Positions 83-14,717 of a stretch of DNA of 48,202 nucleotides are shown here, in pieces. Source of the stretch: Deltaproteobacteria bacterium (GTDB lineage Bacteria; Myxococcota_A; Polyangia; JAAYKL01). The DNA lies in NCBI GenBank assembly GCA_016935665.1, contig JAFGQN010000080.1, positions 1 through 48,202 of the forward strand, read 5' to 3'. The position numbers were made by a program, and so were the translations under genes. The notes under the pieces are model-generated. The model made no database searches. It had not been told where the DNA came from and worked only from the letters and a program-made list of their open reading frames with translations. Numbering within the stretch: position 1 is the stretch's first letter; every line of letters starts with the position of its first letter.

Positions 83-1588
83 ATGAACGCATTACTTGAC
101 TATTTGAAGAAAACGGACACCCCCGATGCGGCCATGGTGGCCTACCTGGCATCTCTTTGCAAAGTGGCTGAGGTTGCACCGGAAATCGCTGCCAGCGTCG
201 TGCAGGAACTGGCGGATCAGCGCAGCTATCTCAAGCTGATCGCCAGCGAAAACTATTCGTCTCTGTCCACCCAGCTGGCTATGGGAAACCTGCTGACCGA
301 CAAGTACGCCGAAGGGTTCCCGTTCCACCGGTTTTATGCCGGCTGTGACAATGTTGACAACATCGAAGATGTGGCCGCCAAAAAAGCCTGCGAGGTTTTT
401 GGGGCCGAACATGCCTACGTACAGCCCCACAGTGGCGCCGATGCCAACATGATTGCCTACTGGGCTATTTTGAGCACTCGGGTGGAAGTGCCCGCCCTTG
501 AGGAACTGGGAGAAACCAATCCCGCCAACCTCTCCAGGGACGACTGGAACACCATCCGCGAAAAACTGGGCAATCAGCGACTGATGGGACTGGATTATTA
601 TTCGGGCGGCCATCTGACCCACGGATATCGCCACAATGTATCGGCTCAGATGTTCGACGCGTATTCCTACTCCGTAAGTAAGGAAACCGGACTTCTGGAC
701 TACGATGAACTGGAAAAAATGGCCGAGGAAGTCAAACCGCTGATTCTGCTGACCGGGTACAGTGCATACCCCCGTAAAATCGATTTTAAACGCATGCGTC
801 AAATCGCAGACAAAGTTGGCGCGGTACTTATGGTCGACATGGCGCATTTCGCCGGGCTGGTGGCAGGCGGCGTGTTTGAGGGCGATTACAATCCAATTGC
901 CCACGCCCAGGTCGTCACCACCACCACTCACAAAACCCTCAGAGGGCCCCGCGGCGGGATGGTGCTGTGCACCGAGGAATTCGCTGAAGCCGTTGACAAA
1001 GGCTGTCCCATGGTGATTGGCGGACCGCTTCCCCACATGATGGCGGCCAAAGCGGTGGCCTTTACCGAAGCGGGTAAGGATGAGTTTAAAACCTACGCTG
1101 CCAATATCGTTAAAAACTGCCAGGCGCTGGCGGCGGCCAGCATCGAAGAGGGACTGACCGTGGCCACAGGCGGCACCGACAACCATCTGTTTTTAGTGGA
1201 TGTCCGCAATCTGGGACTGAACGGCCGCCAGGCAGAAAGCGTATTGAGAGAATGTGGATTCACCCTCAATCGGAACTCGCTGCCCTTCGACCCCAATGGT
1301 CCCTGGTACACCAGCGGACTCAGACTGGGAACAGCTGCGTTGACCACCCTTGGCATGGGCGTCGATGAAATGAAGGAAATTGCCGCTATCATGGCAAAGG
1401 TACTCAAAAACACAACCCCGGCCACAGTTAAAAAAGGCGCCAAAGCGGGCACACCCAGCAAATCCAAACATCAGATTGACGCCGCCATCGTTAATGAGGC
1501 GAAAACCCGCATCAAAGCGCTCCTTGGCCGCTTCCCGCTGTACAGGGAACTCGACCTCGCCTACCTGCAGGACGCCTTTTGCAAATAG
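83..1588 (+). CDS. glyA: Serine hydroxymethyltransferase, long form
   Basis: This PLP enzyme interconverts serine and glycine with tetrahydrofolate and supplies cytosolic one-carbon units. The family pattern is clear: the early motif LIASENYSS, the aspartate motif MVDMAHFAGLV, and the PLP-lysine motif TTTTHKTLRGPRGG with Lys284. At 501 residues it is longer than the usual ~420. An extra segment at about residues 125-175, between the HSGADAN motif and the YSGGHLTHG motif, accounts for most of this, as in the long chlamydial-type enzymes. A GTG three bases upstream (80) is possible, but GAGGAG at 71-76 is better spaced for the ATG at 83. No strong terminator follows. Confidence 0.95.
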   Translation: MNALLDYLKKTDTPDAAMVAYLASLCKVAEVAPEIAASVVQELADQRSYLKLIASENYSSLSTQLAMGNLLTDKYAEGFPFHRFYAGCDNVDNIEDVAAKKACEVFGAEHAYVQPHSGADANMIAYWAILSTRVEVPALEELGETNPANLSRDDWNTIREKLGNQRLMGLDYYSGGHLTHGYRHNVSAQMFDAYSYSVSKETGLLDYDELEKMAEEVKPLILLTGYSAYPRKIDFKRMRQIADKVGAVLMVDMAHFAGLVAGGVFEGDYNPIAHAQVVTTTTHKTLRGPRGGMVLCTEEFAEAVDKGCPMVIGGPLPHMMAAKAVAFTEAGKDEFKTYAANIVKNCQALAAASIEEGLTVATGGTDNHLFLVDVRNLGLNGRQAESVLRECGFTLNRNSLPFDPNGPWYTSGLRLGTAALTTLGMGVDEMKEIAAIMAKVLKNTTPATVKKGAKAGTPSKSKHQIDAAIVNEAKTRIKALLGRFPLYRELDLAYLQDAFCK

Positions 1589-1770
1589 CCCTGACCGCTG
1601 ATGCCACCATATCTTGTGGTGCAACGTGTTGCCAACCATACAATATGCTGTGTTTCGCTTTCAAATTTTCTGAAAAACCGGGGTTTCTGGCCAGGGATCT
1701 TCCTGACTACGTCTCCTTTGGTCCCCGCTTTGGTCCCCCTTTTGTCCCTTTTTTCTGCAAGGTTACAAAG

Positions 1771-2775
1771 TTATCGGTCTTCAAATTGGCGCAAAATGCC
1801 CAGATTCAGATTTGGATAATGGGCGATGGTGACCAAATCTTCGGGTTTAAGCACGGCTTCGTAAAACCAGAAGTCGCCGTCTTCGAGGAAGAGGCCCCGT
1901 TGCCGTAAGAACTGTTTGCATTTTTGTTCGAGCACGGACGAACTGGCGTCTACCAGTGTGCCAGTTACCTGGAACACCAGTTTGTCTTTGGCGATGAATT
2001 GTTGATTGATGGTCATGGGCGCATTGCGCGATTCCTCCAGCACCCACTCCGGTGGTCTGGCGTCGCCGTGCACATCGAAAAGCACCGACACTTTGTAGCC
2101 CAGACACGGTTGGACCGAAAAAGGCGATTGGCGCATTTCGTCGCCCTGGCAGTGCCCCAATATGTCATTTTGAGGCGACGTTTTAATATCTCTGCGCCTC
2201 CTGAAATCCACGGGCAGATACCAGCGAATGGGGCGCACTTTTTTGAATTTGCCAAGCAGCTTCGCAAATCGACGGGTGGTCAACAAATAAGAGCCAATGA
2301 ATAGAAACAAAGCCGGGGATGCGACCCACAGCAATTCCCATGAATGCCACAAAATGTTCATGTTGGGCCAGTTGATAACAAGTGGAATACCGATGGCGAC
2401 CGCTGCGTAGACAGTGGCGTGGACGCCAAACGACAGCGCCTTTGCATTCGCTGGGACATTTTTTCGAGTGTTTTCCTCATTGGATCGCAGGGTTTCCGAT
2501 ACGGTGACATCGTTTAAATCGAGCCACTGGCTGGCGCCGCATCCCGCGCAGTTGTCTGCAGATGAAACGGACAGGTACCCGCACTGCCCACAGGTATGAA
2601 AACAGTTTTGAATGCGGTGTTCGCCATGGTGGTTTGGGTGTTCCTGCTCCCCCCGCACCATGTTCATCTTGCGGTGGGCCTGCACATAGGCGCGCCGGTC
2701 CCGTCTAAATCGCGACATGTCCCGAAACATTTTTTGCATTGCTGCATGGGTCACACAGGTTGCACCGCCCGCCAT
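1771..2775 (-). CDS. Zinc-ribbon membrane protein with a GIDE-like domain
   Basis: This is a 334-residue protein of unassigned function. A basic N-terminus is followed by a zinc-ribbon with Cys62, Cys65, Cys76 and Cys79. Two hydrophobic segments lie at about 116-135 and 146-166, then a soluble C-terminal domain. The C-terminal part (PCLGYKVSVLFD, a following Trp, then a LVDASSSV stretch and a LEDGD turn) resembles the GIDE domain of MULAN/MAPL-type membrane proteins; this is a by-eye resemblance, not a proven assignment. AAGGAG stands 5 bases before the ATG at 2775. It diverges from the chaperone-like operon starting at 2884, sharing a 108-base intergenic region, so a functional link is plausible but unproven. 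Confidence 0.7.
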   Translation of the reverse strand: MAGGATCVTHAAMQKMFRDMSRFRRDRRAYVQAHRKMNMVRGEQEHPNHHGEHRIQNCFHTCGQCGYLSVSSADNCAGCGASQWLDLNDVTVSETLRSNEENTRKNVPANAKALSFGVHATVYAAVAIGIPLVINWPNMNILWHSWELLWVASPALFLFIGSYLLTTRRFAKLLGKFKKVRPIRWYLPVDFRRRRDIKTSPQNDILGHCQGDEMRQSPFSVQPCLGYKVSVLFDVHGDARPPEWVLEESRNAPMTINQQFIAKDKLVFQVTGTLVDASSSVLEQKCKQFLRQRGLFLEDGDFWFYEAVLKPEDLVTIAHYPNLNLGILRQFEDR

Positions 2776-2804
2776 GGCATCTCCTTTCGACTTGTTTGAA
2801 AATG

Positions 2805-2833
2805 TTGAGCTTCAACGGCACAAATGGTATCAT
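2805..2833 (+). promoter_or_regulatory. Probable sigma70-type promoter for the HSP90-like operon
   Basis: TTGAGC at 2805-2810 (4 of 6 bases of TTGACA) and TATCAT at 2828-2833 (5 of 6 of TATAAT) are separated by exactly 17 bases. Transcription would start near 2840 and give a leader of roughly 45 bases before the ATG at 2884. A short dyad, GTTGA-N3-TCAAC at 2804-2816, overlaps the -35 box and could be an operator. The promoter of the divergent gene was not identified. Confidence 0.5.
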
Positions 2834-2883
2834 GAACCGAAATTTTATTCCATCGCAGATTGGTTATCTTTAAAGGAGTTCCC

Positions 2884-3945
2884 ATGGCAGCAACTGAAGT
2901 GAATGTGTCCCAAAAAACATACAAAGGCGCCGGTATTTCCATCCGCTCGCTGGAAGAATCGCTGGGCGAGGAACGGCAGCGTCAGAATGTGGATTTGGAC
3001 AAACTGAAGTCCCTGAAGAGTCAAAACGAGGAACTGTCCAAAGCGCTGGAACAGGAGATTAAGAAGCTTCGAAAGTTTTCGGATTTTGTGTCAAAAGGCG
3101 ACTTCTCATCCTTTGGCGCCAAATTTAAGGAGTTGATGTCGTATCTGCCGGGAATTGGCAAAATGTTTGTGGGCAAGCGTTCCATTGAACAGCTGCTCAA
3201 ACAGCAGTACGAGATTTCATCCCGGCGCACTCACGAAGTAGCCAACTATGCCGATAGACTGGAAGCGGCGGAGCATGATTTGTACCTGGAAATCCGTCGG
3301 CTGAACGACAAAATTATTGAGCACGCCCAAAACGAGGAGGTGGCGGCGGACAATGTGCTGGCGTTAAAGACATCCCTGGAAAAGCTGGAACAGGAGCTGG
3401 CGTTGCCAGGGCAGGAAAAAAACGCGGCATACAGGGAAAAAGAGGCCAGTCTCGACAAGGTGAGAGAATTGCTCAGTGAGCATTCCACCAAACTGGAACT
3501 GTACGGTTCGGCGGAAGAGCGCCTGAATCGCCTTAAGGAAAATACCCGTCGCCTGCAGCAGACCATTTCCAATCTGCACTCAGATATTAAAAAATACGTG
3601 ATGGTGGCCACTGAAAAGCTCGATGAAGCGCAGGCCCATATTCAGGCGCTGGGCACGGCAGCGGATGCGTCGGTGGTGATGCTCGATATGAAGGCGTCGC
3701 TGGATTCCATGCAGTCGTCCATCAATGACACCACGAAGTTTGTGAGCGAGACGCAGATGTATTTGCGGGAAAACCTGGATTCTTTGATATCGGATTTGGA
3801 AATGTACGATACGGAAACCCAGACCATGGTGGACGCCAATCTGCAGCGCAGCAAGGCCATTGAAGACGCGCTTATCGACAAGGCGGTTTCCAAAGCCCTT
3901 GAAACCAAACAAAAGAACGCCAAATCCGCCCAGACGCATATTTGA
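2884..3945 (+). CDS. Coiled-coil protein, first gene of the HSP90-like operon
   Basis: The protein has 353 residues and no recognised family. It is nearly all heptad-rich helix, with charged coiled coil at about 20-65 and 105-230. These are interrupted by a more hydrophobic Gly/Phe/Pro segment at about 70-100 (SYLPGIGKMF). A second long helical region at about 240-345 is rich in Asp, Ser and Met. There is no signal peptide or clear membrane segment. The ATG at 2884 is chosen because AAAGGAG sits just before it; an upstream in-frame TTG at 2860 has no such site. Only 15 bases separate it from the next gene. A scaffold or adaptor role for the operon's ATPases is an inference from shape and position only. 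Confidence 0.8.
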   Translation: MAATEVNVSQKTYKGAGISIRSLEESLGEERQRQNVDLDKLKSLKSQNEELSKALEQEIKKLRKFSDFVSKGDFSSFGAKFKELMSYLPGIGKMFVGKRSIEQLLKQQYEISSRRTHEVANYADRLEAAEHDLYLEIRRLNDKIIEHAQNEEVAADNVLALKTSLEKLEQELALPGQEKNAAYREKEASLDKVRELLSEHSTKLELYGSAEERLNRLKENTRRLQQTISNLHSDIKKYVMVATEKLDEAQAHIQALGTAADASVVMLDMKASLDSMQSSINDTTKFVSETQMYLRENLDSLISDLEMYDTETQTMVDANLQRSKAIEDALIDKAVSKALETKQKNAKSAQTHI

Positions 3946-3960
3946 GGCAGTGCACACACC

Positions 3961-4986
3961 ATGAATCGCGCAACACCTGTGAGAGGGGGCGGCCAGACCC
4001 GTTTAAAAACGCCGACTACGCTGGCGCTTTGCGGCGATGAAGCGACCGAATATGTCAATGACCTGTCGTGCTGTATCTCGGAGATTCAACTCAACGACAT
4101 GTATCCACCGTTTCAGCGGGTGCTGCACTCACTGGATGTGATGGACCCCAAAATCAACGGTGGACTGTATCCCACGTTAAAGGTGCGATGCGACGCCGGA
4201 CTTCCGGGGTACAGCGAGTTTGTGCGCGTGCAGTCTGATTATGATTTGTGCGCCGACGAGCTCTCCATGCTGAAATGCCGTCACGATGCCAACGACGCCA
4301 CCGTGCACCCAAAGCTTTGGGCACGGCGGCAGTATCTGGAAACCCTGCAGCAGGCCGCCCCGTTTTGTGAGCAGACCCAGATTCTATTTCGGAAAATTGA
4401 CCGGGCCAATCAAACCGCACTGTTTAGAGTGGTGCTGGACAGATTCAATCCGCAAGGGTTGCTGGAGCGAACCACGGTGGAGTGTGTACAGCACCACCAG
4501 ATATGGACCCGCGAGAATCTGTCGCTGGATGGCAACGATGTGGCGCAGATTCGCGACGATCTTAAAGGCTTGATTTATCGACTCTCTCCATTGGACATAT
4601 CGTTGCTGTTCATTCGTCTCGCGGATACCGCGGGGTTGACGGTCACCCGGGTGATCAAAGGGTCCATTGGACCACTGATATCGCCGCGGGGGGGAGTGAT
4701 GGGGCGCCATGATGATTTGAAAATGGTGGTAGCGGATGGGGCTCTGCTCAGCGCGGGAATTCAGGTGGCCGGCATTGATATGGACGCAGATGTGAACAAC
4801 GATCCGTTCTGCGGGGAGGCAGCGTTATCGGGGGAAGCGAGGGCGCAGTTTTGCAAAGAGAGGAGTCTTCCCCCTGTGTATGTATTTTGCGATCGCAAGT
4901 TTGCGCTGTGTGATGGCGATGTGCCTGCGCTAAAAGCCTATCTGGCAAAGGCAACCACGAAAAATATTGTATACGAGGTGAAGTAA
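3961..4986 (+). CDS. Protein of unknown function in the HSP90-like operon
   Basis: A 341-residue, probably cytosolic protein that I cannot assign to a family. It has scattered cysteines (a Cys-Cys pair near residue 38), no signal peptide and no membrane helix. A Gly/Arg-rich turn (ISPRGGVMGRHDD) near 240-255 is the only conspicuous loop. The ATG at 3961 has only a weak GAGG upstream, so translation may be coupled to the preceding gene, which ends 15 bases earlier. It is followed after 4 bases by the AAA+ ATPase gene. That tight spacing argues for a dedicated partner of the ATPase, but nothing in the sequence shows the function. Confidence 0.75.
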   Translation: MNRATPVRGGGQTRLKTPTTLALCGDEATEYVNDLSCCISEIQLNDMYPPFQRVLHSLDVMDPKINGGLYPTLKVRCDAGLPGYSEFVRVQSDYDLCADELSMLKCRHDANDATVHPKLWARRQYLETLQQAAPFCEQTQILFRKIDRANQTALFRVVLDRFNPQGLLERTTVECVQHHQIWTRENLSLDGNDVAQIRDDLKGLIYRLSPLDISLLFIRLADTAGLTVTRVIKGSIGPLISPRGGVMGRHDDLKMVVADGALLSAGIQVAGIDMDADVNNDPFCGEAALSGEARAQFCKERSLPPVYVFCDRKFALCDGDVPALKAYLAKATTKNIVYEVK

Positions 4987-4990
4987 CCCC

Positions 4991-6628
4991 ATGACGACTT
5001 ATGAAACATCTCAAAACGGATACGCGCATCTGGTCACCTCAGGCATCGCGGCCAGTGGTCTACCGGCGCTTTTCACGCAGCTGGCGCCCGGGGATTTTGG
5101 ATTGACCGAAGATACGCTGTATCTGTTGCAACGGCTTAAGCAGGCCCTGATGGACGCCCATGTGGCCGCCGAAAAAATGAAGTACGCCATCTCGCCGTTA
5201 GGTAACGATGGGCAGGTGGTGGATTTGTCAAAGGAGCAAAAACAGTTTGCCGGACTGTTTGCGCTCAAAGTGTTTACATGGGCCATGTCGGATGCACTGT
5301 CGGAAAAAACGGCGCGTCCGAATGTGGAAGGGGCGTTTGAACTGGACGGTTTTTTGTCCCTGGCGGCCGAACTGGACGACAATTTTGCCGCGCGTATCTC
5401 CAGACTTTTATGTGCGTTTATTAAGAACGATGGAACAGAAGGGGGGGACGAGCAACAAACGACGCATTTGTTTGGCGCAGTGTTTGCGTTTGTACTGCTG
5501 CTTTTGGAGACGGTATCGTCAGTGCTGGAAAGTGGCCGATTCAAACGGTTTGCCGAGCAGGTGGCGTCCCACGAGATGCAAATTGGACTGTTGAGATGGA
5601 AAGGCGTGGTGCCTGTGAAAGTGGCGGCGCAAAAAGCGATGCTGCGGCCTGTGAGCCCCAAAGATATCATCGGCAATGAGACGTATCTCAATGCGGCCAT
5701 GCGTTTGGCAAGGGATGTGGCTGGATATGATTTTGAGCAGCAGAAAAACCCCAAAGACATCAATCCCATCATTTTTGCGTTGGGGCCGCCGGGATGTGGC
5801 AAGACTTTGGTCGCCCATGCGGTGGGCAATTACTTTACAGAATACTGTACTCAAAGGGATATTTCGTCACAGTTTGTGATTATCCGAAAAAACGACTGGG
5901 CGTCATCGTATCAGAACGCCTCAGCGCAAAACCTCATTTCCATTTTTCAAAAACTGCATCGCTTTAATGGCGTGGTGGGCATTTACTGGGCAGACATCGA
6001 TACCGCGCTGGCCAGCCGCGATCAGAAGTCGCTGCGTTCCGAGGAAAAAGCCAATCTGTCGTCGGCGTTCAATATTTTTGATGGGACGCTCATTCCTTTT
6101 GATGGCAAATGGTTCATGATGTGCGACGCCAACAATCTGGAAATGGATGAGGCGCTGCGCACCCGAATTGCCAGAAATCCGTTTAACGCAAATGGTCCAG
6201 AAACGCCGCAGCAGTATGTGCAGCTGTTTTTGGACATACAGTTGAAAAAGGTGGCCAAACACATTCGGTGTGATGACGCACTGTGGCAGGAGATTGGTCA
6301 GATGGCCTGTGACGCGAAAATATCGGGACGCGCCATGGAAGGGTTGGCCAAAAAGGTGATGAGTCGGGTTCAGGACTTTGAATATCCCGACGACTATTTT
6401 AACGCGTCGTTCGAGGAAAAGGGGCAAATCATTGAGTCGTGTTCAAAAACGGTGAGCGGCCAGGAAATTCGGCAAATGGTGGAGGATTATGTTCGCTTCG
6501 AAAAGGAAGAAGAAATGCGACTTTCCCAAAAGCGGTTTAACGACGCTGTGGCCGATGCGGTGTTTGCCATGAATGTGCAAAAGGAAGTGGTGGCAAAGGA
6601 ACTGAATGGATTGAACGATGACCTCTGA
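4991..6628 (+). CDS. AAA+ ATPase of the HSP90-like operon
   Basis: This 545-residue protein has an N-terminal helical region of about 230 residues without a recognised domain, followed by a single AAA+ module. The Walker A motif GPPGCGKT is at 265-272. The Walker B strand VVGIYWADID ends at Asp337, with Ala where the common D-E pair would have its first acidic residue. A sensor-1-like MMCDANN and an arginine-finger-like LRTRIA follow near residue 386. The C-terminus is a charged helix suggestive of coiled coil. By family knowledge it would form a ring that remodels protein substrates; the substrate is unknown. Its last 11 bases overlap the start of the first HSP90-like gene, implying coupled translation. 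Confidence 0.88.
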   Translation: MTTYETSQNGYAHLVTSGIAASGLPALFTQLAPGDFGLTEDTLYLLQRLKQALMDAHVAAEKMKYAISPLGNDGQVVDLSKEQKQFAGLFALKVFTWAMSDALSEKTARPNVEGAFELDGFLSLAAELDDNFAARISRLLCAFIKNDGTEGGDEQQTTHLFGAVFAFVLLLLETVSSVLESGRFKRFAEQVASHEMQIGLLRWKGVVPVKVAAQKAMLRPVSPKDIIGNETYLNAAMRLARDVAGYDFEQQKNPKDINPIIFALGPPGCGKTLVAHAVGNYFTEYCTQRDISSQFVIIRKNDWASSYQNASAQNLISIFQKLHRFNGVVGIYWADIDTALASRDQKSLRSEEKANLSSAFNIFDGTLIPFDGKWFMMCDANNLEMDEALRTRIARNPFNANGPETPQQYVQLFLDIQLKKVAKHIRCDDALWQEIGQMACDAKISGRAMEGLAKKVMSRVQDFEYPDDYFNASFEEKGQIIESCSKTVSGQEIRQMVEDYVRFEKEEEMRLSQKRFNDAVADAVFAMNVQKEVVAKELNGLNDDL

Positions 6629-8450
6629 TGCGCATCTTGAGAGGGAAATCGAACAAAACAGACAGAAGATGGGCGATGCCGCACTGGACACACTGGTTTT
6701 GCAGTTTGCCAATCCATTCGATTTTATAAGGGAGCTGGTGCAAAACAGTTTGGACGCCGGGACGTCGGCGGTGGATGTACGCATTGATATGGAACCGGTG
6801 AATCACCGAGATGCTCTGTGTCGAATCAGTGTGCGGGATTTTGGCGAGGGCATGGATGAACATATTATCGATACCAAACTCACCCGGCTTTTTTCATCGT
6901 CCAAAGAAAATGACCTCACGCGTATTGGCAAATTTGGAATTGGTTTCGTGTCGGTGTTTGCCATTGAACCGCAGGCGGTGATTGTGACCACGGCGCGCGG
7001 GGGACAAAGCTTTGAAGTATTTTTTGATGCGAAGCGACGTTTCGAGAAAACAGTCCTTGATGACCCCTTCGACGGCACTGAGGTAGTGGTCTTAAAAAAA
7101 ATTCAAATTGAGGAATTTGATACATATGCACTGGAGTTGCGAAATAGATTGGATAAATGGTGCAAACATGCTGAACGGGAAATTTACTTTACGAATGCGC
7201 AACAGGACAGCGCGACAAATACGCATCGGCAACGGAGAGCCCGACGCAGTGCACGTCAATCGGTGAATCAGCCCTTTGAGGTAGATGGTTTTTTACCCCT
7301 GCATGTAAAAACCGCCAATGCGGAAATATGCCTCGCGTTTTGTGAGGGAAAACCGTTTTTTGGGTTTTACAATCGCGGGCTCACTCTTTTGGAATCGCAG
7401 GACGAAGAGACGATTGGCGCATACAGGAGATACCTTGGAAACATTTCGTTTAAACTAAATTCGCCATTTCTGGAGCACACACTGACGCGCGATACCCTGT
7501 TGCAGGACAGCAATTTTCATAAGGCCATGTGCAAAGTGGTGGATGCAGCGCGCATTGATTTGGTTGGACACCTTGTGAGTCACATGGAAAAACTGGCGTG
7601 TCAACCGGAACTGACTGCACAGGAACAGCGGGAATATTTTAGATGTCTGGGACTGTTGTATGAATTGCCCAGAGCACTGGACCCCACATTTGGTTTTTCA
7701 GAATGGCTGCAGGACAAAACAAGCAGCCTTGTGGAGAAGACGGCGTTTTGGACCAGCGACTTACGCCTTTTGGAAAAATCAACGGACGCCAGTCGTGCCC
7801 GAATTTTCAGAGATTTGGAGGGGAAAGGGTGTACCCTTGCAGAGGTGGCGCAGCGGGTGGTGATCCATGAGCGACTACTGTATCTGTCGCCATCGCACAA
7901 TCCTCAGATGAATGAATTGGCCAAAGGGGGGCTGATGGTGCTGCTTAGTCCCACGTTCGATACCGGATATGATTTTTTTAAGTCTCATATCGAAATGCTG
8001 CACTTTGGAAAAACCGTGCGAATGTTGCAAAAAGGTGCGTACCCCTACGAAACCATTTCGTTGTCGTCCATGGCACCTCACGAGCAGAAACTGGTGGATG
8101 CGACCATGACGCTGCTGCGCGTATGCGAGGCGCCGATTGTGGAGATTGTTCCTGTCAATCTACTGGGAGATTCGCCATTGGAAATGCCCTTGTCGGGATG
8201 CGTCGGCGCGCATGACACTGTCGTTGTCACGCGAGAGATTGGGTATATGGAGAAAGAACGCGTTTTTTGGAACATACCGGGGTTTTGTTTTCAAAGTCTG
8301 GCGCAACTGTTTAAAACACAACCTCGGCTGGCGACCCTGATGGCGGCACGACAGACCATTTTGGAAACGGTGGACCACGATTGGCTGCGCGCGACATCCC
8401 TTGATAGATGCCTGCAGCATCTGGACGGTGTGGAGTTGTCCCATGAATGA
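6618..8450 (+). CDS. HSP90-like GHKL ATPase, copy 1
   Basis: The 610-residue protein has an intact GHKL nucleotide pocket. The N-box is RELVQNSLDAG with Glu39, Asn43 and Asp46; the G1 box is RDFGEGMD with Asp74; the lid and G2 motif is GKFGIGF at 104-110. Further on, SPFLEHTLTRDTL resembles the HSP90 middle-domain loop whose arginine reaches the gamma-phosphate (VSRE in HtpG). It lacks the usual HtpG C-terminal dimerisation sequence pattern and is clearly not orthologous HtpG. The start ATG at 6618 lies within the end of the AAA+ gene, and the stop overlaps the next gene. The second copy at 10305 is closely similar along its whole length. An ATP-driven chaperone-like role is inferred. Confidence 0.88.
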   Translation: MTSDAHLEREIEQNRQKMGDAALDTLVLQFANPFDFIRELVQNSLDAGTSAVDVRIDMEPVNHRDALCRISVRDFGEGMDEHIIDTKLTRLFSSSKENDLTRIGKFGIGFVSVFAIEPQAVIVTTARGGQSFEVFFDAKRRFEKTVLDDPFDGTEVVVLKKIQIEEFDTYALELRNRLDKWCKHAEREIYFTNAQQDSATNTHRQRRARRSARQSVNQPFEVDGFLPLHVKTANAEICLAFCEGKPFFGFYNRGLTLLESQDEETIGAYRRYLGNISFKLNSPFLEHTLTRDTLLQDSNFHKAMCKVVDAARIDLVGHLVSHMEKLACQPELTAQEQREYFRCLGLLYELPRALDPTFGFSEWLQDKTSSLVEKTAFWTSDLRLLEKSTDASRARIFRDLEGKGCTLAEVAQRVVIHERLLYLSPSHNPQMNELAKGGLMVLLSPTFDTGYDFFKSHIEMLHFGKTVRMLQKGAYPYETISLSSMAPHEQKLVDATMTLLRVCEAPIVEIVPVNLLGDSPLEMPLSGCVGAHDTVVVTREIGYMEKERVFWNIPGFCFQSLAQLFKTQPRLATLMAARQTILETVDHDWLRATSLDRCLQHLDGVELSHE

Positions 8451-10308
8451 GATTGACAGGCTCATTGCACGCAGTCGTAAAAAGGGCGGGTTTTCAAAAA
8501 AGGGGTACTTCACCCTTGAGGCGCAAAAGGCAAAGCAAAAAATTGGGGCGTATGCGTTGCCCGCTGTGGAATATGCGATTTTGGAGTTTATTCAGTCTGC
8601 GACTGCGGTGGGGGCGACGTTTATTGATGTGTCGGTTTCCGGGCATCCGCAAACTGTTTCTTTTGTTGGAGGTAGTTATACGCAATCCGAACTGGCCCAT
8701 CTGTTTGACCATTTACTCATTGATGGGGAAAATTCGCGCAGTCGCGCCATGCGGCGTTTGGCTGTGGGGGTTGTGGCGGTACTTCGCCAGGCATCGTCCA
8801 GTGTGGTGGTAGAAAGCGGCGACGGTACTGTGGCGGGGTCGTGTCGTTTGGAAATTGAAAACCCGGAGTCCCCTTTTGAGGTTGGAAGGCCTGTCGAACC
8901 CATTGATGGCACTTTTGTTCGGTTTGACATCGAACAAACCACCAGCTGGCGCGAAAAACTGGAGACGATATTTGGTCACTCGCTGCTGGGTGTTTCCAGA
9001 GGTGCGGATGGGGCGGGGAGTGATGATGACGACAAATCAGATATGACGTCTCTCGTTTACGAGCGATGCCTTTATTCGTTCGTCCCGTTGCAATTAAACG
9101 GGGAATTGCTCACCGGATATACTGCTGCCAAAGCCATACAACTTCGGCATTTGAAACACGCTGTTGAAATAGATGAAGGGGATTTGTACGGTGGGATTGG
9201 CCTTTCGCGAGATGCGAAGCGCCCAGCAGAGCTGAAGGTGCTTGCCAACGGAATATGGGTGGGTACCCTTTGGCCAAAGTTACCAAAGGGCATTACTGGC
9301 GTGGTGGGATACGAACGGCTGCATCGCACCGCCAGCCAGTATGGAATTGTGATGGATGACCGGGTGTTGGAATTGACGATGCGCCTGAAAAAGTATGTGG
9401 AAATGGTTTTGGTGACGTCTGGCGTTACGAGCAAAGCCCGTCTTGATGCGTTTTTTGAGGTCATGGGGCTGGATGTTGAAAGAGGGGCTGAAACACTCAA
9501 ACACCAGGAAGCGCATTTTAAAAAGCACAACGCCTTGTGTAGCCGGCAACATGCGCGCGAAAAAAAATCGGCAACAGCCAAACCATCAACGATTCATCAT
9601 AAACTGCCAGTGTCTGAAAATGAACCCACCGTGTCTGAAAACAGATTGGGAGTGTCTGAAAACAAACCGTCTGTTTTTGAAAACAAGCCCAGCAAGAGGC
9701 GTGCAACTTTGGAGAAGGCCAACTCGAAGCTCCCCCACCAGGAGGTCCCTAAAGGTGATTGGGGGAATGTATTGAAACCTTTTGGGACTGGTATGATTCA
9801 TTCGCTTCCCTCGAAAAGAGAGTTGACGGCAATGATGGATGCCATGCCGCAAAACGAGTTTATTACCGCTGCTATCAAAGATATTTTACACTTTGTTTTT
9901 TCAATTGAGGACACGGGGGGACAGATGGGAAGAGACTTTGTTGTTGAGATGGACCATCAGATTTCAAAGGCAGTGCGCATCAATGCCACAAGGATTCCCA
10001 AAGAAAAATGGCGACATCCAAACAGACCCGACACGCTGGTGTCGCTGAATCCAGCGCATGAAACGATTGCGCTTATTGTTAAAGACATGCGATTTAATCC
10101 GCTGGGCATATACCAGCTGGTGTTTGTCATTATGAATGAAATACAAAAAAACACCAACAACCAGAAGAATGACACATTTGAACAATGCGAGCTTTCGCTG
10201 TACCGGCCGCTGTTGCGCTGTTTGCAGCCGGACGTGTGGGAACATGTACGCGATGATACTGAGGAAACAACTGCGTTTGACGATGCTGCGGATTGGAGTC
10301 GGATATGA
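8443..10308 (+). CDS. Degenerate GHKL-like partner protein, copy 1
   Basis: This 621-residue protein is encoded directly after HSP90-like copy 1, with an overlap of 8 bases and GGAG ahead of the ATG at 8443. Its N-terminal region appears to be a decayed GHKL fold. LEFIQSATAVGA aligns with the N-box of its neighbour: Glu48 is kept, but Ser52 replaces the Mg-binding Asn and Ala55 the Asp. FVGGSY replaces the G1 DxGxG, and RRLAVGV at 104-110 replaces GKFGIGF. A variable linker with four 7-residue repeats (about 390-417) leads to a C-terminal domain shared with copy 2. It therefore probably does not hydrolyse ATP, and may regulate or pair with the active HSP90-like protein. This alignment was done by eye. 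Confidence 0.78.
   Translation: MNEIDRLIARSRKKGGFSKKGYFTLEAQKAKQKIGAYALPAVEYAILEFIQSATAVGATFIDVSVSGHPQTVSFVGGSYTQSELAHLFDHLLIDGENSRSRAMRRLAVGVVAVLRQASSSVVVESGDGTVAGSCRLEIENPESPFEVGRPVEPIDGTFVRFDIEQTTSWREKLETIFGHSLLGVSRGADGAGSDDDDKSDMTSLVYERCLYSFVPLQLNGELLTGYTAAKAIQLRHLKHAVEIDEGDLYGGIGLSRDAKRPAELKVLANGIWVGTLWPKLPKGITGVVGYERLHRTASQYGIVMDDRVLELTMRLKKYVEMVLVTSGVTSKARLDAFFEVMGLDVERGAETLKHQEAHFKKHNALCSRQHAREKKSATAKPSTIHHKLPVSENEPTVSENRLGVSENKPSVFENKPSKRRATLEKANSKLPHQEVPKGDWGNVLKPFGTGMIHSLPSKRELTAMMDAMPQNEFITAAIKDILHFVFSIEDTGGQMGRDFVVEMDHQISKAVRINATRIPKEKWRHPNRPDTLVSLNPAHETIALIVKDMRFNPLGIYQLVFVIMNEIQKNTNNQKNDTFEQCELSLYRPLLRCLQPDVWEHVRDDTEETTAFDDAADWSRI
9610..9693 (+). repeat. Four 21-bp tandem repeats inside the copy 1 linker
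   Basis: Units begin at 9610, 9631, 9652 and 9673. Each starts GTGTCTGAAAA or a close variant (the last reads GTTTTTGAAAA), encoding Val-Ser/Phe-Glu-Asn followed by three variable residues. The repeat lies in frame in a part of the protein absent from copy 2 at 12125, so it looks like recent linker expansion. Confidence 0.8.
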
Positions 10309-12128
10309 GTCAGGACGTTTATTTACAGGATATAAGTGTAAGGGAAAAGGAAATCGGTGATGCCGCCTTGAAAACGCTGGTGCGGCAGTTTGCCAATCCG
10401 TTCGATTTTATTCGGGAGCTGGTGCAAAACAGTCTGGATGCGGGGACGTCAAGGGTGGATGTGAGTATTGACCTGGAGCCTGTGGATGACGTGTTTGGCC
10501 TGTGTAAGATAGCGGTGCGGGACTATGGTCAGGGAATGGATGAGCAGATTATCGACAGCAAGTTGACGCGTCTTTTTTCCTCGACCAAAGAGGATGACCT
10601 CACCAGCATTGGCAAGTTTGGCATTGGCTTTGTGTCGGTGTTTGCCATTGATCCGGAGGCGGTGATTTTAACTACAGCTCGGGGCGGGCAGGCCTTTGAG
10701 ATTTTTTTTCATAAGGATAAAACCTTTGAAAAAACCGCTTTGCATGAACCTTTTGATGGTACTCAGGTGGTCATTTTAAAGAAAATTAAAAGGGCCCTTT
10801 ATGGACGCCATGTGACACGGCTGCGTGATCGATTAATCAAGTGGTGCAAGCATGCTGAAAAGGAGATTGGCTTTTTTGATTTGCACAAGGAGTGTACCGA
10901 GATGAAACATCGGCGGCGTCGGGGACGTCAAAATAGACATCATTTGATTAATCAACCTTTCGCTGTGGAAGGTTTTTTGCCAACAACGGTCAAATTGGAA
11001 AACGCCGAAATATCCATCGCATTTTCAGAAAAGAACTTTTACGGATTTTACAACCGCGGTCTCACTCTGGCAGAGTCGGAAGGCACAGAGGCCATCGCCG
11101 GGTATGAACGCTATTTGTCGATGGTGTCGTTTAAGATCAACTCTCCATTTTTAGAACACACTTTGACTCGTGACACCATTTTAAAAGATGATCATTATCA
11201 TAAAGCCATTTGTATGGTGGTGGAAGCCGCGCGGATTGATCTGGTTCAAAATCTTGTATCAACAATGGTAAAACTGGCGGCTCGTTTGGCGCCAACCACC
11301 TATGAAAAAAATCAGTACGCCCGCTGTCTGGGATGGCTTTACAAGCTGCCGCGCGCGCTGGATCCCACATTTTTTTTTAAGGAACGATTGGCGGATACCA
11401 CCAGTTCATTGCTCGAAAAAATGGAGGTGTGGCATAAGACAGCAAATCTGGGCGAGAAATCCGTGAACGCCAGTGAGTTGCGAATTTTCAAACGATGTGA
11501 TGGCCAGGTGCTCACCATGAGTGAGTTGGCCCACAAGGTGGTGAAGCAAAAAGGGCGCCTTTATTTCTCCCACGAAGACAATCCGCAGACACAGGAGCTG
11601 CAATCCCGGGATTACACCGTCCTGATGAGTCCATCCACCGAAAGCGCGTTGTCGTTTTTTAAGCGTCATATTCGCGTCGCCTTTCCGGACCAGGATATTG
11701 AAACGCAGTCGCACAGGGAATATCCCTTTGAGGAAGTTTCGCTTAATACACTGGCGTCACATGAACAACAGTTTATCGCTGCGACCATGCATCGGTTGAC
11801 CCACGCCATGGCGCCTGTCGACGTTATCGTTCCAGTTAATTTGCTGGGAGACAACGCCATGGAAGTGTCGTTGGCGGGATGCATTGGCGAGCACGATATT
11901 GGACGCTGTTTTCCCATGATAGAAACGGATGCGCCCATGCCGGTTTTCTGGAACATTCCGGGGATTCTTTTTCAGAGTCTGGCAAAGCTGTTTTTGTCAA
12001 ATCCGGAGCTGGCCACGGTCATCGCTGCGCGACAGACAATTATGGATACCGTTGCCAGCTACAGAATCCGGGTGACATCGCTTAGGCTGTGCATGATGGA
12101 ATTGAACACAGCAGGGGAATTGCCATGA
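10305..12128 (+). CDS. HSP90-like GHKL ATPase, copy 2
   Basis: A 607-residue paralogue of the gene at 6618, with the same motifs: N-box RELVQNSLDAG, G1 box RDYGQGMD, G2 GKFGIGF, and the middle-domain loop SPFLEHTLTRDTI with the conserved Arg. The catalytic set is intact, so it should bind and hydrolyse ATP. The ATG at 10305 overlaps the stop of the preceding gene as ATGA and has GGAG 7 bases upstream; an upstream TTG at 10293 is less likely. Basic residues near 205-215 (RRRRGRQNR) lie in a loop that also varies in copy 1. Having two active copies, each with its own degenerate partner, suggests two specialised heteromeric complexes or substrate ranges; this is inference. Confidence 0.88.
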   Translation: MSQDVYLQDISVREKEIGDAALKTLVRQFANPFDFIRELVQNSLDAGTSRVDVSIDLEPVDDVFGLCKIAVRDYGQGMDEQIIDSKLTRLFSSTKEDDLTSIGKFGIGFVSVFAIDPEAVILTTARGGQAFEIFFHKDKTFEKTALHEPFDGTQVVILKKIKRALYGRHVTRLRDRLIKWCKHAEKEIGFFDLHKECTEMKHRRRRGRQNRHHLINQPFAVEGFLPTTVKLENAEISIAFSEKNFYGFYNRGLTLAESEGTEAIAGYERYLSMVSFKINSPFLEHTLTRDTILKDDHYHKAICMVVEAARIDLVQNLVSTMVKLAARLAPTTYEKNQYARCLGWLYKLPRALDPTFFFKERLADTTSSLLEKMEVWHKTANLGEKSVNASELRIFKRCDGQVLTMSELAHKVVKQKGRLYFSHEDNPQTQELQSRDYTVLMSPSTESALSFFKRHIRVAFPDQDIETQSHREYPFEEVSLNTLASHEQQFIAATMHRLTHAMAPVDVIVPVNLLGDNAMEVSLAGCIGEHDIGRCFPMIETDAPMPVFWNIPGILFQSLAKLFLSNPELATVIAARQTIMDTVASYRIRVTSLRLCMMELNTAGELP

Positions 12129-14248
12129 GCAGTATCGATGAGATTATCAAACGCAGTCGCAAGTCGGGCGGATTTAAAACCAAAGGGTACTTCACGTTGG
12201 AAGCGCAAAAAGCAAAACAGAAAATTGCGGCCTTTGCGCTGCCCGCAGTGGAGTATGCAGTGCTGGAATTTATTCAATCCGCCATAGCAGCCGGGGCAAA
12301 GTTTGTGGATTTGTCAGTGTTGAACAACCAGATTATGCTTTCGTTTGTGGGCGGTTTTTATAGCGGACAGGAATTGGCGCATTTATTTGATTACCTGTTG
12401 CTGGATACGGACGACGCCCGTACTCGGGCCATGCGCCGGTTGGCCGTGGGGATTGCGGCAGTGCTCAAAGACAGTCCCATGGGCGTGGTTATCGAAAGTG
12501 GCAACGGCACCCTGAATGGGTCCTCGCGGCTGGAGATTGCCGATTTGAATTCACCGTTCTCGGTGGGCACCCCGAAAAGTCCCATTGGTGGAACATTCAT
12601 TCGCCTTGCCATTCCAGCAAGAAGTCGCGAGTGGGGCAGATGGCTTGGCGAGGCGCTACAACGTACTATGGAGTCTCTGAATACGGTGGGATACACCATT
12701 ACGGGGGAGGAGAGTGACAGTTCATGGGGCATCTCGTCTCTGGTGTATGAGCGTTGCCTGTATTCCATTGTTCCGCTGCAGCTCAATGGCGAACTGATAA
12801 CCGGATACACGACTCAAAAGGCTATGCAGATGCGTCATTTGCGAGCGCCGGTTGCTTTTGATGAGGGAGATTTGTACGGGGGACTGGGCATGACCTACGA
12901 TGAGGACAGACCGGCAGAAATAAAAGTCCTTACAAATGGCATTTGGGTCACGTCGATAAAGCCCATGCTGCCTCGGGGAATCTCGGGCGTGGTGGGTTAC
13001 GAGCGCCTGCATAAAACCGCCAGTCAATACGGAATTGTGGCTGATGAGCGCATGGCTGAAATGACCGAACGATTGAAGCCATATGTGGATCAGATTTTGG
13101 CCAGATTGGGCCTCACCGCCGAAGAGCGATGGGCAGCGCTGTTTCAGCGACCGATAACCGGGTTGCATATTCCCGATACCACGAATCACTTCGACGTATT
13201 ATCCAAAGATGGGGCACGTACCGCCATTTTGGAGATATGGCCAGCCACAGATGACGACGGGGAGGCCGACAGTATCGATAAGAATGAACAAAATGTGCTG
13301 CAGTTGACGGTGATCAGCGAACGCGGAAGCATTATTGATACAATAGGTGTGCCATTTGAAGGGGAAGCACAGGGCGTACTGCAAATCGATTTTCATTTTT
13401 ACAGCCTCGACATCGTTTACTATCGCACGCTGGAAGAAGCGGACTATCACACGTCCGCATTGGTGGGACTGAAAAGTGAGTTTTACAACGATTTATTTTT
13501 GGCCATGGGCATCGACTGGCGTGCTGCATCTCTGCGGGTAAAGGAAATGGCTCTGGCTCAAAAACAGAATCAGCGCGACGAAGCCGAATTTTTAAAGGAT
13601 TCACGCAACACCTCGTCGGAAGATGTTCCGGATGAAGACCCGTTTTTTCAAACGTTGCTATCTAAAGAAGACGCGACGTCAGCGTCCCTGGCAGCACCGA
13701 CTTCGGCATCCAGCGAGGGAAACGATACTCCCCAGACTCCCGCATTACCCAGACATCACAACACGTTCCCTTCCGCGACGGAGTTGCGCGCTCTGTTTGA
13801 TACCATGGAATTCAAAGACGCCATATGCGCTCAGCTCGCTGAAATCCTGCAGTTTGCCTTTGCCGAATCCAGCAATCGCAAAATTCAAAAAAAGTCTGTG
13901 CGCGTTAAAGTTACGCATCGAAGCCGACTTGAAAAACCGATTCGTATCATTCCAAACGCATTGTCCCAAATGGATGTGGATGAGGGACTCGAACCCTTAC
14001 TGCTGGTGGAAATCAACAGCGACAGCGATAGCATGCAACACCGCTTCGCTCAAATTGCCAAAGATCCGACCATGGTCTACCTGCTGGTGTTCACCATTTT
14101 CGACGAGTTGCGCGAAACCATGGATTCCACCGCAGAAACCCATTTCGAAAAAAGCGAACGCGCCATTTATCGTCCCATGATCATGAACCTGCGTGGGGCG
14201 ATGGGTGCGTCTGAAGCAAAACCTCTTTTGAAACTGCAGAATTCCTGA
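12125..14248 (+). CDS. Degenerate GHKL-like partner protein, copy 2
   Basis: A 707-residue paralogue of the gene at 8443. The shared N-terminus includes KGYFTLEAQKAKQKI and LEFIQSAIAAGAKFVDLSV, in which Glu47 is kept but Ser51 replaces the N-box Asn. The G1 position reads FVGGFYS and the G2 position RRLAVGI, so ATP binding is again doubtful. Compared with copy 1 it carries extra sequence at about 370-470 that looks like an additional beta-rich domain, then a Ser/Pro/Thr-rich linker. The common C-terminal domain (LFTM-type helix, LLVFTIFDELRE, ERAIYRPM) follows. ATGA overlap couples it to the preceding ATPase. The function is unknown; a regulatory pseudo-ATPase or client adaptor is the working idea. 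Confidence 0.78.
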   Translation: MSSIDEIIKRSRKSGGFKTKGYFTLEAQKAKQKIAAFALPAVEYAVLEFIQSAIAAGAKFVDLSVLNNQIMLSFVGGFYSGQELAHLFDYLLLDTDDARTRAMRRLAVGIAAVLKDSPMGVVIESGNGTLNGSSRLEIADLNSPFSVGTPKSPIGGTFIRLAIPARSREWGRWLGEALQRTMESLNTVGYTITGEESDSSWGISSLVYERCLYSIVPLQLNGELITGYTTQKAMQMRHLRAPVAFDEGDLYGGLGMTYDEDRPAEIKVLTNGIWVTSIKPMLPRGISGVVGYERLHKTASQYGIVADERMAEMTERLKPYVDQILARLGLTAEERWAALFQRPITGLHIPDTTNHFDVLSKDGARTAILEIWPATDDDGEADSIDKNEQNVLQLTVISERGSIIDTIGVPFEGEAQGVLQIDFHFYSLDIVYYRTLEEADYHTSALVGLKSEFYNDLFLAMGIDWRAASLRVKEMALAQKQNQRDEAEFLKDSRNTSSEDVPDEDPFFQTLLSKEDATSASLAAPTSASSEGNDTPQTPALPRHHNTFPSATELRALFDTMEFKDAICAQLAEILQFAFAESSNRKIQKKSVRVKVTHRSRLEKPIRIIPNALSQMDVDEGLEPLLLVEINSDSDSMQHRFAQIAKDPTMVYLLVFTIFDELRETMDSTAETHFEKSERAIYRPMIMNLRGAMGASEAKPLLKLQNS

Positions 14249-14312: not shown

Positions 14313-14717
14313 ATGTGGCCACAGTTTGCCAGAGATAAAGGGGAGCCGAAGCATCATTACTCCACGCTGGAAAGTGCGGATGACACGACGGATGCATCAT
14401 CAGAGCAGCGATATGTGTGTCGGGCGTGTGGTGTGCCTGTGACGACAGCGACGGCGCGGATGTCCATAGGTGGTCGGGCCGAGCATACCTTTGCCAATCC
14501 GGGGGCTGACGTTTATACCATTGGCTGCTTTGCCGATGCGCAGAATCTGGTGGTGGCCAGTGAGCCCTCATCGCTGTTTACCTGGTTTCCCGGTTACCAG
14601 TGGCAGGTGACCATTTGCGCCGGTTGCGGGCTGCATCTGGGATGGCTGTATACGGCGGTGAATCGGTTTTACGGTTTGATTATGGACAGATTGTATCTGC
14701 AGGAGAAACCCCCCTGA
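14313..14717 (+). CDS. CULT-domain (cereblon-like) protein
   Basis: The 134-residue protein matches the cereblon ligand-binding (CULT) fold. Cys36, Cys39, Cys102 and Cys105 would hold the structural zinc. Trp91, Trp97 and Trp111 occupy the tri-tryptophan cage, in the contexts TWFPGYQW and HLGW. The Trp-Trp spacings of 6 and 14, and the 5 residues from the second Trp to the third Cys, equal those of human cereblon (Trp380, 386, 400; Cys391). Stand-alone bacterial CULT proteins are known, and the domain binds cyclic imides and related small ligands. Here it would be cytosolic; the N-terminal ~30 residues look disordered. It lies 64 bases after the HSP90-like operon on the same strand and may be its last gene. 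Its biological ligand is unknown. Confidence 0.88.
   Translation: MWPQFARDKGEPKHHYSTLESADDTTDASSEQRYVCRACGVPVTTATARMSIGGRAEHTFANPGADVYTIGCFADAQNLVVASEPSSLFTWFPGYQWQVTICAGCGLHLGWLYTAVNRFYGLIMDRLYLQEKPP

Follow-up and report, generated by a model that had tools for sequence, protein, structure and literature searches.

Why should a bacterial operon encode, directly beside an Hsp90-like ATPase with intact motifs, a second protein that resembles it but seems to have lost the ATP site? This question is raised by a 48,202-nucleotide stretch of DNA, hereafter the window, which comprises contig JAFGQN010000080.1 of the deltaproteobacterial assembly GCA_016935665.1 (contig 136 of a source genome of 8.16 Mb in 249 contigs). 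Positions 2884–14248 of the window carry seven genes on the + strand, nearly gapless and in the order P0001, P0002, P0003, P0004, P0005, P0006, P0007. The last four alternate between active Hsp90-like GHKL ATPases (P0004, 6618–8450, copy 1; P0006, 10305–12128, copy 2) and partner genes that we refer to as pseudo-Hsp90 subunits (P0005, 8443–10308, copy 1; P0007, 12125–14248, copy 2). A preliminary description, made from the sequence alone, had read the partners as degenerate GHKL pseudo-ATPases and the pairs as parts of a heteromeric machine; its coordinates for the partner genes were confirmed, the ATG codons lying at 8443 and 12125 and the stops at 10308 and 14248. The analysis reported below leads us to conclude that a GHKL machinery of the Hsp90 type, divided between an active paralogue and a dead one, is real and general, and that it is undescribed in the libraries and papers searched.

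Fold and descent of the two subunits

Every GHKL motif is intact in P0004 and P0006, which match the Pfam family HATPase_c_3 with expectation values (E) of 5.9e-12 and 3.7e-11, respectively. An AlphaFold model of P0004 (43-sequence alignment; predicted local distance difference test, pLDDT, 85.6) was aligned by VIA-align with TRAP1 over 369 residues (Z 20.1) and with full-length Hsc82 over 480 residues (Z 19.2, root-mean-square deviation 8.6), and the predicted structure follows the N-middle-C domain order. P0004 scored under the curated cut-offs for HtpG (31.5 vs 371 bits) and for the HSP90 family protein (37.6 vs 455 bits). Matches to sacsin models were also obtained: P0006 reached 34.5 bits against Pfam SACS (cut-off 32.8), for which P0004 scored 32.7, and 51.7 bits against the NCBIfam sacsin N-terminal domain (cut-off 50). 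Among the PADLOC anti-phage families no match to the pseudo subunit was found, and the active subunit gave only partial matches to the N-terminal part of TmtA, the best at 9e-10 over about 100 of 1486 positions. The active proteins are uniform in length, mostly 530–650 aa; long frames ahead of the active domains at loci L031 and L032 contained no additional Pfam domain and, like those at L084 and L095, were taken to be over-extended.

Comparison of a profile of 18 pseudo domains with one of 13 active domains using hhalign gave a probability of 98.3% (E 2.2e-14); the 252 columns align in register, beginning at the first helix and running through the middle domain. A control profile built from homologues of P0002, an unrelated operon family, gave 0.3%. 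The alignment by eye of the partners with the N-terminal pocket of their neighbours, on which the preliminary description had relied, is thereby borne out. The pseudo hidden Markov model also matched the active partners directly, with E down to 1.7e-6. These profile comparisons indicate that the pseudo subunit shares descent with the GHKL ATPase of the neighbouring active family.

Residues 1–344 of P0005, counted from the ATG at 8443, were modelled with AlphaFold2 (18-sequence alignment, pLDDT 81, predicted template modelling score 0.79); the structure models rest on shallow alignments. All 50 Foldseek matches listed for this model belonged to the Hsp90 family (TRAP1/Hsp90; best E 2e-14), and VIA-align superposed it on closed Hsp90 over 285 residues at 4.2 Å (Z 17.8), a stretch that takes in the N-domain and the beginning of the middle domain; the Z values for MORC2 and GyrB were 16.4 and 16.0. 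The pseudo subunit is therefore predicted to have the Bergerat fold, and the structure prediction that had been proposed as a check on the preliminary reading came out GHKL-like. In P0005 the N-terminal Bergerat fold covers residues ~1–160 and the middle-domain part extends to ~344, followed by a linker and a C-terminal domain. Its assignment rests on the predicted model, hhalign and the pocket residues, and that of P0007 on sequence comparison, hhalign and the pocket residues. Among viral structures, the rIIA lysis-inhibition proteins and Hsp90-like proteins of phages are some of the closest folds to the pseudo model; viral contigs contained no match to the pseudo domain, and plasmid records none to P0005 or P0016.

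The homology between pseudo and active subunits extends through the middle domain, with a weaker match over the C-terminal domain. A profile of the C-termini of long pseudo subunits matched active C-termini (up to 1.2e-6), and in a compact pseudo protein from a second branch of the family, described below, the first half matched the pseudo profile and the second half the active profile (positions 278–530, E 5e-4). The C-terminal domain thus appears, from these matches, to be common to both subunits. Pseudo proteins vary in length, mostly from ~620 to ~1970 aa (longest 1966 aa), and the long ones differ from the actives by a variable, faster-evolving stretch between the middle and C-terminal parts. 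Their N-terminal signature reads F-T-L/V ... K-L-R-x-F-x-L-x-x-P-x-x-Y-V-L-E-L-I-Q-A-A, then R-Q-L-A-L-G-x-N-A.

Within the window, P0004 and P0006 align with 55% identity, and P0005 and P0007 share 58% identity across their N-terminal 344 residues; the unit was therefore duplicated as a pair. Judged from these alignments, one active-plus-dead unit is present here in two tandem copies, which make up the four genes.

Pocket residues, pairing and co-evolution

The loss of the ATP-binding motifs from the partners, as first noted by eye, was recovered by profile-profile alignment. Specifically, the N-box Asn and Asp of the active subunit (Asn43 and Asp46 of P0004) are replaced by Ser and Ala, the G1 motif D-x-G-x-G (D-F-G-E-G) by F-V-G-G-S, and the G2 motif G-K-F-G-I-G by R-R-L-A-V-G (RRLAVGV or RRLAVGI), while the N-box Glu is kept in both pseudo subunits of the window (E48/E39). 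The same positions were then counted in 61 pseudo and 53 active proteins, the middle-domain Arg being scored in 60 and 52 of them. The Mg-binding N-box Asn, the lid Asp and the adenine-binding G1 Asp were each present in 0/61 pseudo vs 53/53 active proteins, and F, W or Y stood in place of the G1 Asp in 55 of the 61. In the pseudo G2 motif (GxxGxG) the first Gly is Arg in 48/61 and the second Ala in 60/61, the third being kept in 51/61. All actives carried the N-box Glu, Asn and Asp, the G1 Asp and Gly, and the G2 Gly positions (53/53). The middle-domain Arg, which corresponds to the gamma-phosphate sensor of Hsp90, was found in 11/60 pseudo vs 52/52 active proteins and is Gln in the pseudo subunits of the window. 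The N-box Glu, kept in 50/61 pseudo proteins, is therefore not strictly required in the family. By the evidence of these residues, the ATP site of the pseudo family is destroyed; since the replacements are conserved and not scattered as in decay, they suggest that selection has acted to fill or alter the pocket.

Selection on the pseudo Hsp90-fold domain was estimated as the ratio of non-synonymous to synonymous substitution (dN/dS) in eight pairs of related loci; some synonymous distances exceeded 1, and those ratios are rough. Values of 0.15–0.32 were obtained for seven pairs and 0.61 for the eighth, a diverged pair. The ratio was below that of the rest of the same protein in 8/8 pairs and below that of the active partner in 6/8. 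The substitution patterns indicate that the domain is under purifying selection, in most comparisons at least as strong as that on its partner.

The distribution of the two subunits was examined in 377 genomes of one phylum. The pseudo-domain profile (A4) matched 93 of these and the active profile (A6) 84. When only strong matches were taken (pseudo, E ~1e-18 or better; active, E < 1e-75), 77 genomes had both subunits, three the pseudo only, two the active only and 295 neither (Fisher p 6e-74, a value that ignores the relatedness of the genomes). In both of the genomes with the active subunit only, an uncharacterised gene of ~1100 codons overlaps the end of the active gene, and one of these genes matched the pseudo profile weakly at the N-terminus of its product (E 7e-4). 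About one fifth of the sampled genomes carry the pair, so that it is common in the source phylum; its genes overlap or nearly do, and the family libraries searched do not contain it. The pseudo subunits therefore constitute a large protein family that is not yet annotated and has an N-terminal signature of its own. A scan of species genomes with pattern A2 gave no match, and one with pattern A3 returned six loci, from Myxococcales, Deltaproteobacteria and unplaced proteobacterial metagenome-assembled genomes (MAGs).

Gene order is equally regular. In 99 of 112 cases the active gene is directly followed on the same strand by a pseudo gene; for none of the 112 was the order reversed, and none had a pseudo gene close by in the opposite orientation. 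The 36 pseudo genes that lacked a listed active neighbour are an overcount, because no more than three candidates from any genome were scored in the active search. Among 61 pseudo genes whose flanks were examined, 49 follow an active gene, with a gap of −22 to +63 nt in all but one and most commonly −4; four are second or third in a row (L071, L083, L110), and two belong to pairs that exceeded the cut-off or lay at the end of a contig (L032, L087). The window conforms to this arrangement, with overlaps of 8 nt between P0004 and P0005 and of 4 nt each (ATGA) between P0005 and P0006 and between P0006 and P0007. No natural fusion of active and pseudo subunits was seen among the pair loci. At one locus (L107, 4559–11310) a transposase gene with an rve integrase core is inserted between the active and pseudo genes.

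Lastly, the distance matrices of active and pseudo subunits correlate at 0.87, the best of 2000 permutations reaching 0.26. Co-evolution was separated from shared species history by swapping paralogues within genomes that hold two pairs: in 9/9 genomes the swapped partner fitted no better than the adjacent one, which was ahead by a wide margin in seven (~0.87 vs −0.1) and by a negligible one in the recent duplicates of the window and in genome G027. These correlations indicate that the active and pseudo subunits co-evolve pair by pair.

A putative heteromeric machine and competing readings

The heteromeric machine postulated in the preliminary description is thus supported, indirectly but strongly, by near-perfect co-occurrence, an invariant order with overlapping stop and start codons, paired duplication and matching distance matrices. 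By analogy with Hsp90, we consider it probable that the two proteins form an obligate active/dead hetero-oligomer, presumably a dimer, in which only the active arm would bind and hydrolyse ATP. The accompanying suggestion that the dead subunit only regulates or binds may also hold.

Hsp90 is an ATP-driven homodimer, and HtpG and TRAP1 are likewise homodimers of identical arms; in closed Hsp90, the N-terminal strand before the first helix is the element that crosses between the arms. The present system resembles these in having an active subunit with a predicted N-middle-C architecture and the catalytic set, and a pseudo subunit with the predicted N and early middle fold. It differs in that a second gene supplies a permanently altered arm, and its active subunits fall far below the HtpG cut-off and lack the first strand (beta1) in the model. 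The pseudo model has this beta-strand at residues 16–21, before the first helix, and the neighbouring Phe23 is among its most conserved residues, whereas the active model begins at the first helix; the residues preceding the N-box Glu number 24–29 in the shortest actives vs 48 in P0005. We therefore envisage a structural dead arm in which the face of the N-domain turned towards the dimer interface is preserved, together with the beta-strand missing from the active arm, and in which the fast-evolving insert between the middle and C-terminal domains probably recognises a client or signal. ATP would drive the active arm to close upon the dead one, and this movement would remodel or release whatever is brought by the dead arm and the operon partners, namely the coiled-coil protein P0001, P0002 and, in some lineages, an AAA+ ATPase. 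A more specific proposal is tentative, and we give it somewhat less than even chances: a natural obligate Hsp90 heterodimer, with an asymmetry fixed by evolution that in Hsp90 homodimers is merely transient, in which the dead arm donates its strand in one direction to an ATPase arm that has none and carries an exchangeable client or signal insert. In the second branch, the pair would be linked through the inner membrane to a transglutaminase-like domain on the periplasmic side. The arms of Hsp90 are thought to act unequally, which has so far been probed with engineered mixed dimers; if the proposal is true, a natural split between ATPase and dead arm would let this asymmetry be addressed directly, as to the effect of a single hydrolysis, the contribution of the inert arm and the choice made on the client side.

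There are precedents for the individual elements of this idea. In TRAP1 the two arms of the dimer differ functionally, and engineered dimers that carry a mutation in one arm are asymmetric as well and still able to close (PMC5550277). MTOPVIB is a degenerate GHKL subunit, and the purified Arabidopsis protein does not bind ATP (PMC11077084). Taken together, the TRAP1 mutants and MTOPVIB make the idea of a heteromer mechanistically sound. By description, MTOPVIB and TOPOVIBL are alike to the pseudo subunit in combining a GHKL fold with altered ATP residues; unlike it, they are relatives of Topo VI that partner SPO11 in the eukaryotic meiotic Spo11 complex and not an active GHKL paralogue. Sacsin, whose models the active subunits match, is eukaryotic and combines three Hsp90-like modules with DnaJ and HEPN domains in a single giant chain (PMC3710099), whereas here two separate bacterial subunits are found. 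In bacterial conflict systems, inactive STAND NTPases serve as the invader-sensing part beside active NTPases (PMC8195603); their fold is different, and that paper does not mention GHKL or Hsp90. No description of the pseudo family was found in the open-licence literature on inactive bacterial GHKL pairs, sacsin-like operons, conflict systems or Hsp90-transglutaminase proteins.

Several observations weigh against an obligate pair with a single working pocket. Sampling was confined to one phylum, five of the 61 pseudo genes had no active neighbour in the available stretch (L036, L038, L040, L090, L108), and at L071, L083 and L110 one active gene is followed by two or three pseudo genes; the stoichiometry may therefore not be 1:1, and such arrays suggest interchangeable dead arms on one motor. 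These multiple and solitary genes, together with the large and variable size of the pseudo proteins next to the uniform actives, would also fit a pseudo protein that stands apart from a homodimeric active ATPase as its substrate, adaptor or scaffold, with the pseudo fold retained by descent and a role like that of a client or co-chaperone. We regard this as unlikely, since the most constrained part of the pseudo subunit is the Hsp90-fold domain itself, including the N-terminal strand and first helix, where the N-N interface of Hsp90 is formed, and since the C-terminal domain is common to both subunits.

The N-box Glu, retained by most pseudo proteins, and the middle-domain Arg, present in some (50/61 and 11/60), likewise leave room for a residual or altered ligand role. 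The pocket could have been remodelled for another small ligand, making the pseudo subunit a sensor that gates the active arm, which would be compatible with a heteromer; beyond the retained Glu, this would account for the conserved aromatic (55/61), Arg (48/61) and Ala (60/61) replacements at the adenine Asp and in G2, and for an E-S-G-D-G stretch conserved in many pseudo proteins. A bulky aromatic residue and an Arg are, however, expected to fill the pocket, and we think a ligand sensor quite improbable. That the partners are ordinary pseudogenes or decaying duplicates beside a working chaperone gene would explain the lost catalytic residues, but it deserves next to no credence in view of long open frames in ~20 families, the low dN/dS of the dead domain in 7/8 pairs, the conserved replacements and the near-obligate pairing; decay is refuted by the measured constraint. 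We therefore retain the active/dead hetero-oligomer as the preferred reading.

Operon partners and a second branch

Three further genes precede the pairs in the window. P0001 (2884–3945, + strand) encodes a coiled-coil protein of unknown family whose homologues lie close to active/pseudo pairs elsewhere: blastp and phmmer identified related open reading frames in L029, L072, L075, L077, L101 and L032, with weaker matches in L074, L082, L103 and L104. P0002 (3961–4986, + strand), a partner gene of the pair also of unknown family, carries conserved NNDP and DRKF motifs, and its homologues adjoin or directly precede the active gene in L023, L028, L029, L072, L075, L077, L089 and L101. P0003 (4991–6628, + strand) encodes an AAA+ ATPase (GPPGCGKT; Pfam AAA, 4e-09) and overlaps P0004 by 11 nt; homologues immediately precede the active gene in L029 and L032 and are part of the same cluster in L071. 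P0001, P0002 and the P0003-type AAA+ ATPase are candidates for further components of the machine. None of the Pfam and NCBIfam models scored above its cut-off against P0001, P0002 or the pseudo subunit.

Other neighbours were noted at individual loci. A Ser/Thr kinase gene lies beside the pair in L024, and kinase context was considered as a general feature; a motif scan and Pfam showed that it is not. Prolyl oligopeptidase genes occur beside the pair in L103 (11720–15480, 4-nt overlap) and beside a lone pseudo gene in L090 (2251–5394). Directly 5′ of the active gene in L023, from a Myxococcales MAG, is a gene (1474–3450) for a protein with Schlafen AlbA_2 and HATPase_c_4 domains. Just 3′ of the operon in the window, at 14313–14717, lies a gene for a small Yippee/cereblon-like (CULT-type) zinc-binding protein, its match to Yippee-Mis18 (2.1e-5) being slightly under the cut-off.

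A second, divergent active/pseudo branch is present in the source genome (G000) on contig 7 (L134, 3576–7792, − strand). Its active protein, of 988 aa, has apparent transmembrane segments and a transglutaminase core (PF01841, 1.8e-8) between the middle and C-terminal parts, and the compact pseudo-GHKL protein of 416 aa is encoded with a 1-nt overlap with the preceding active gene. Relatives of this type were found at L135–L138.

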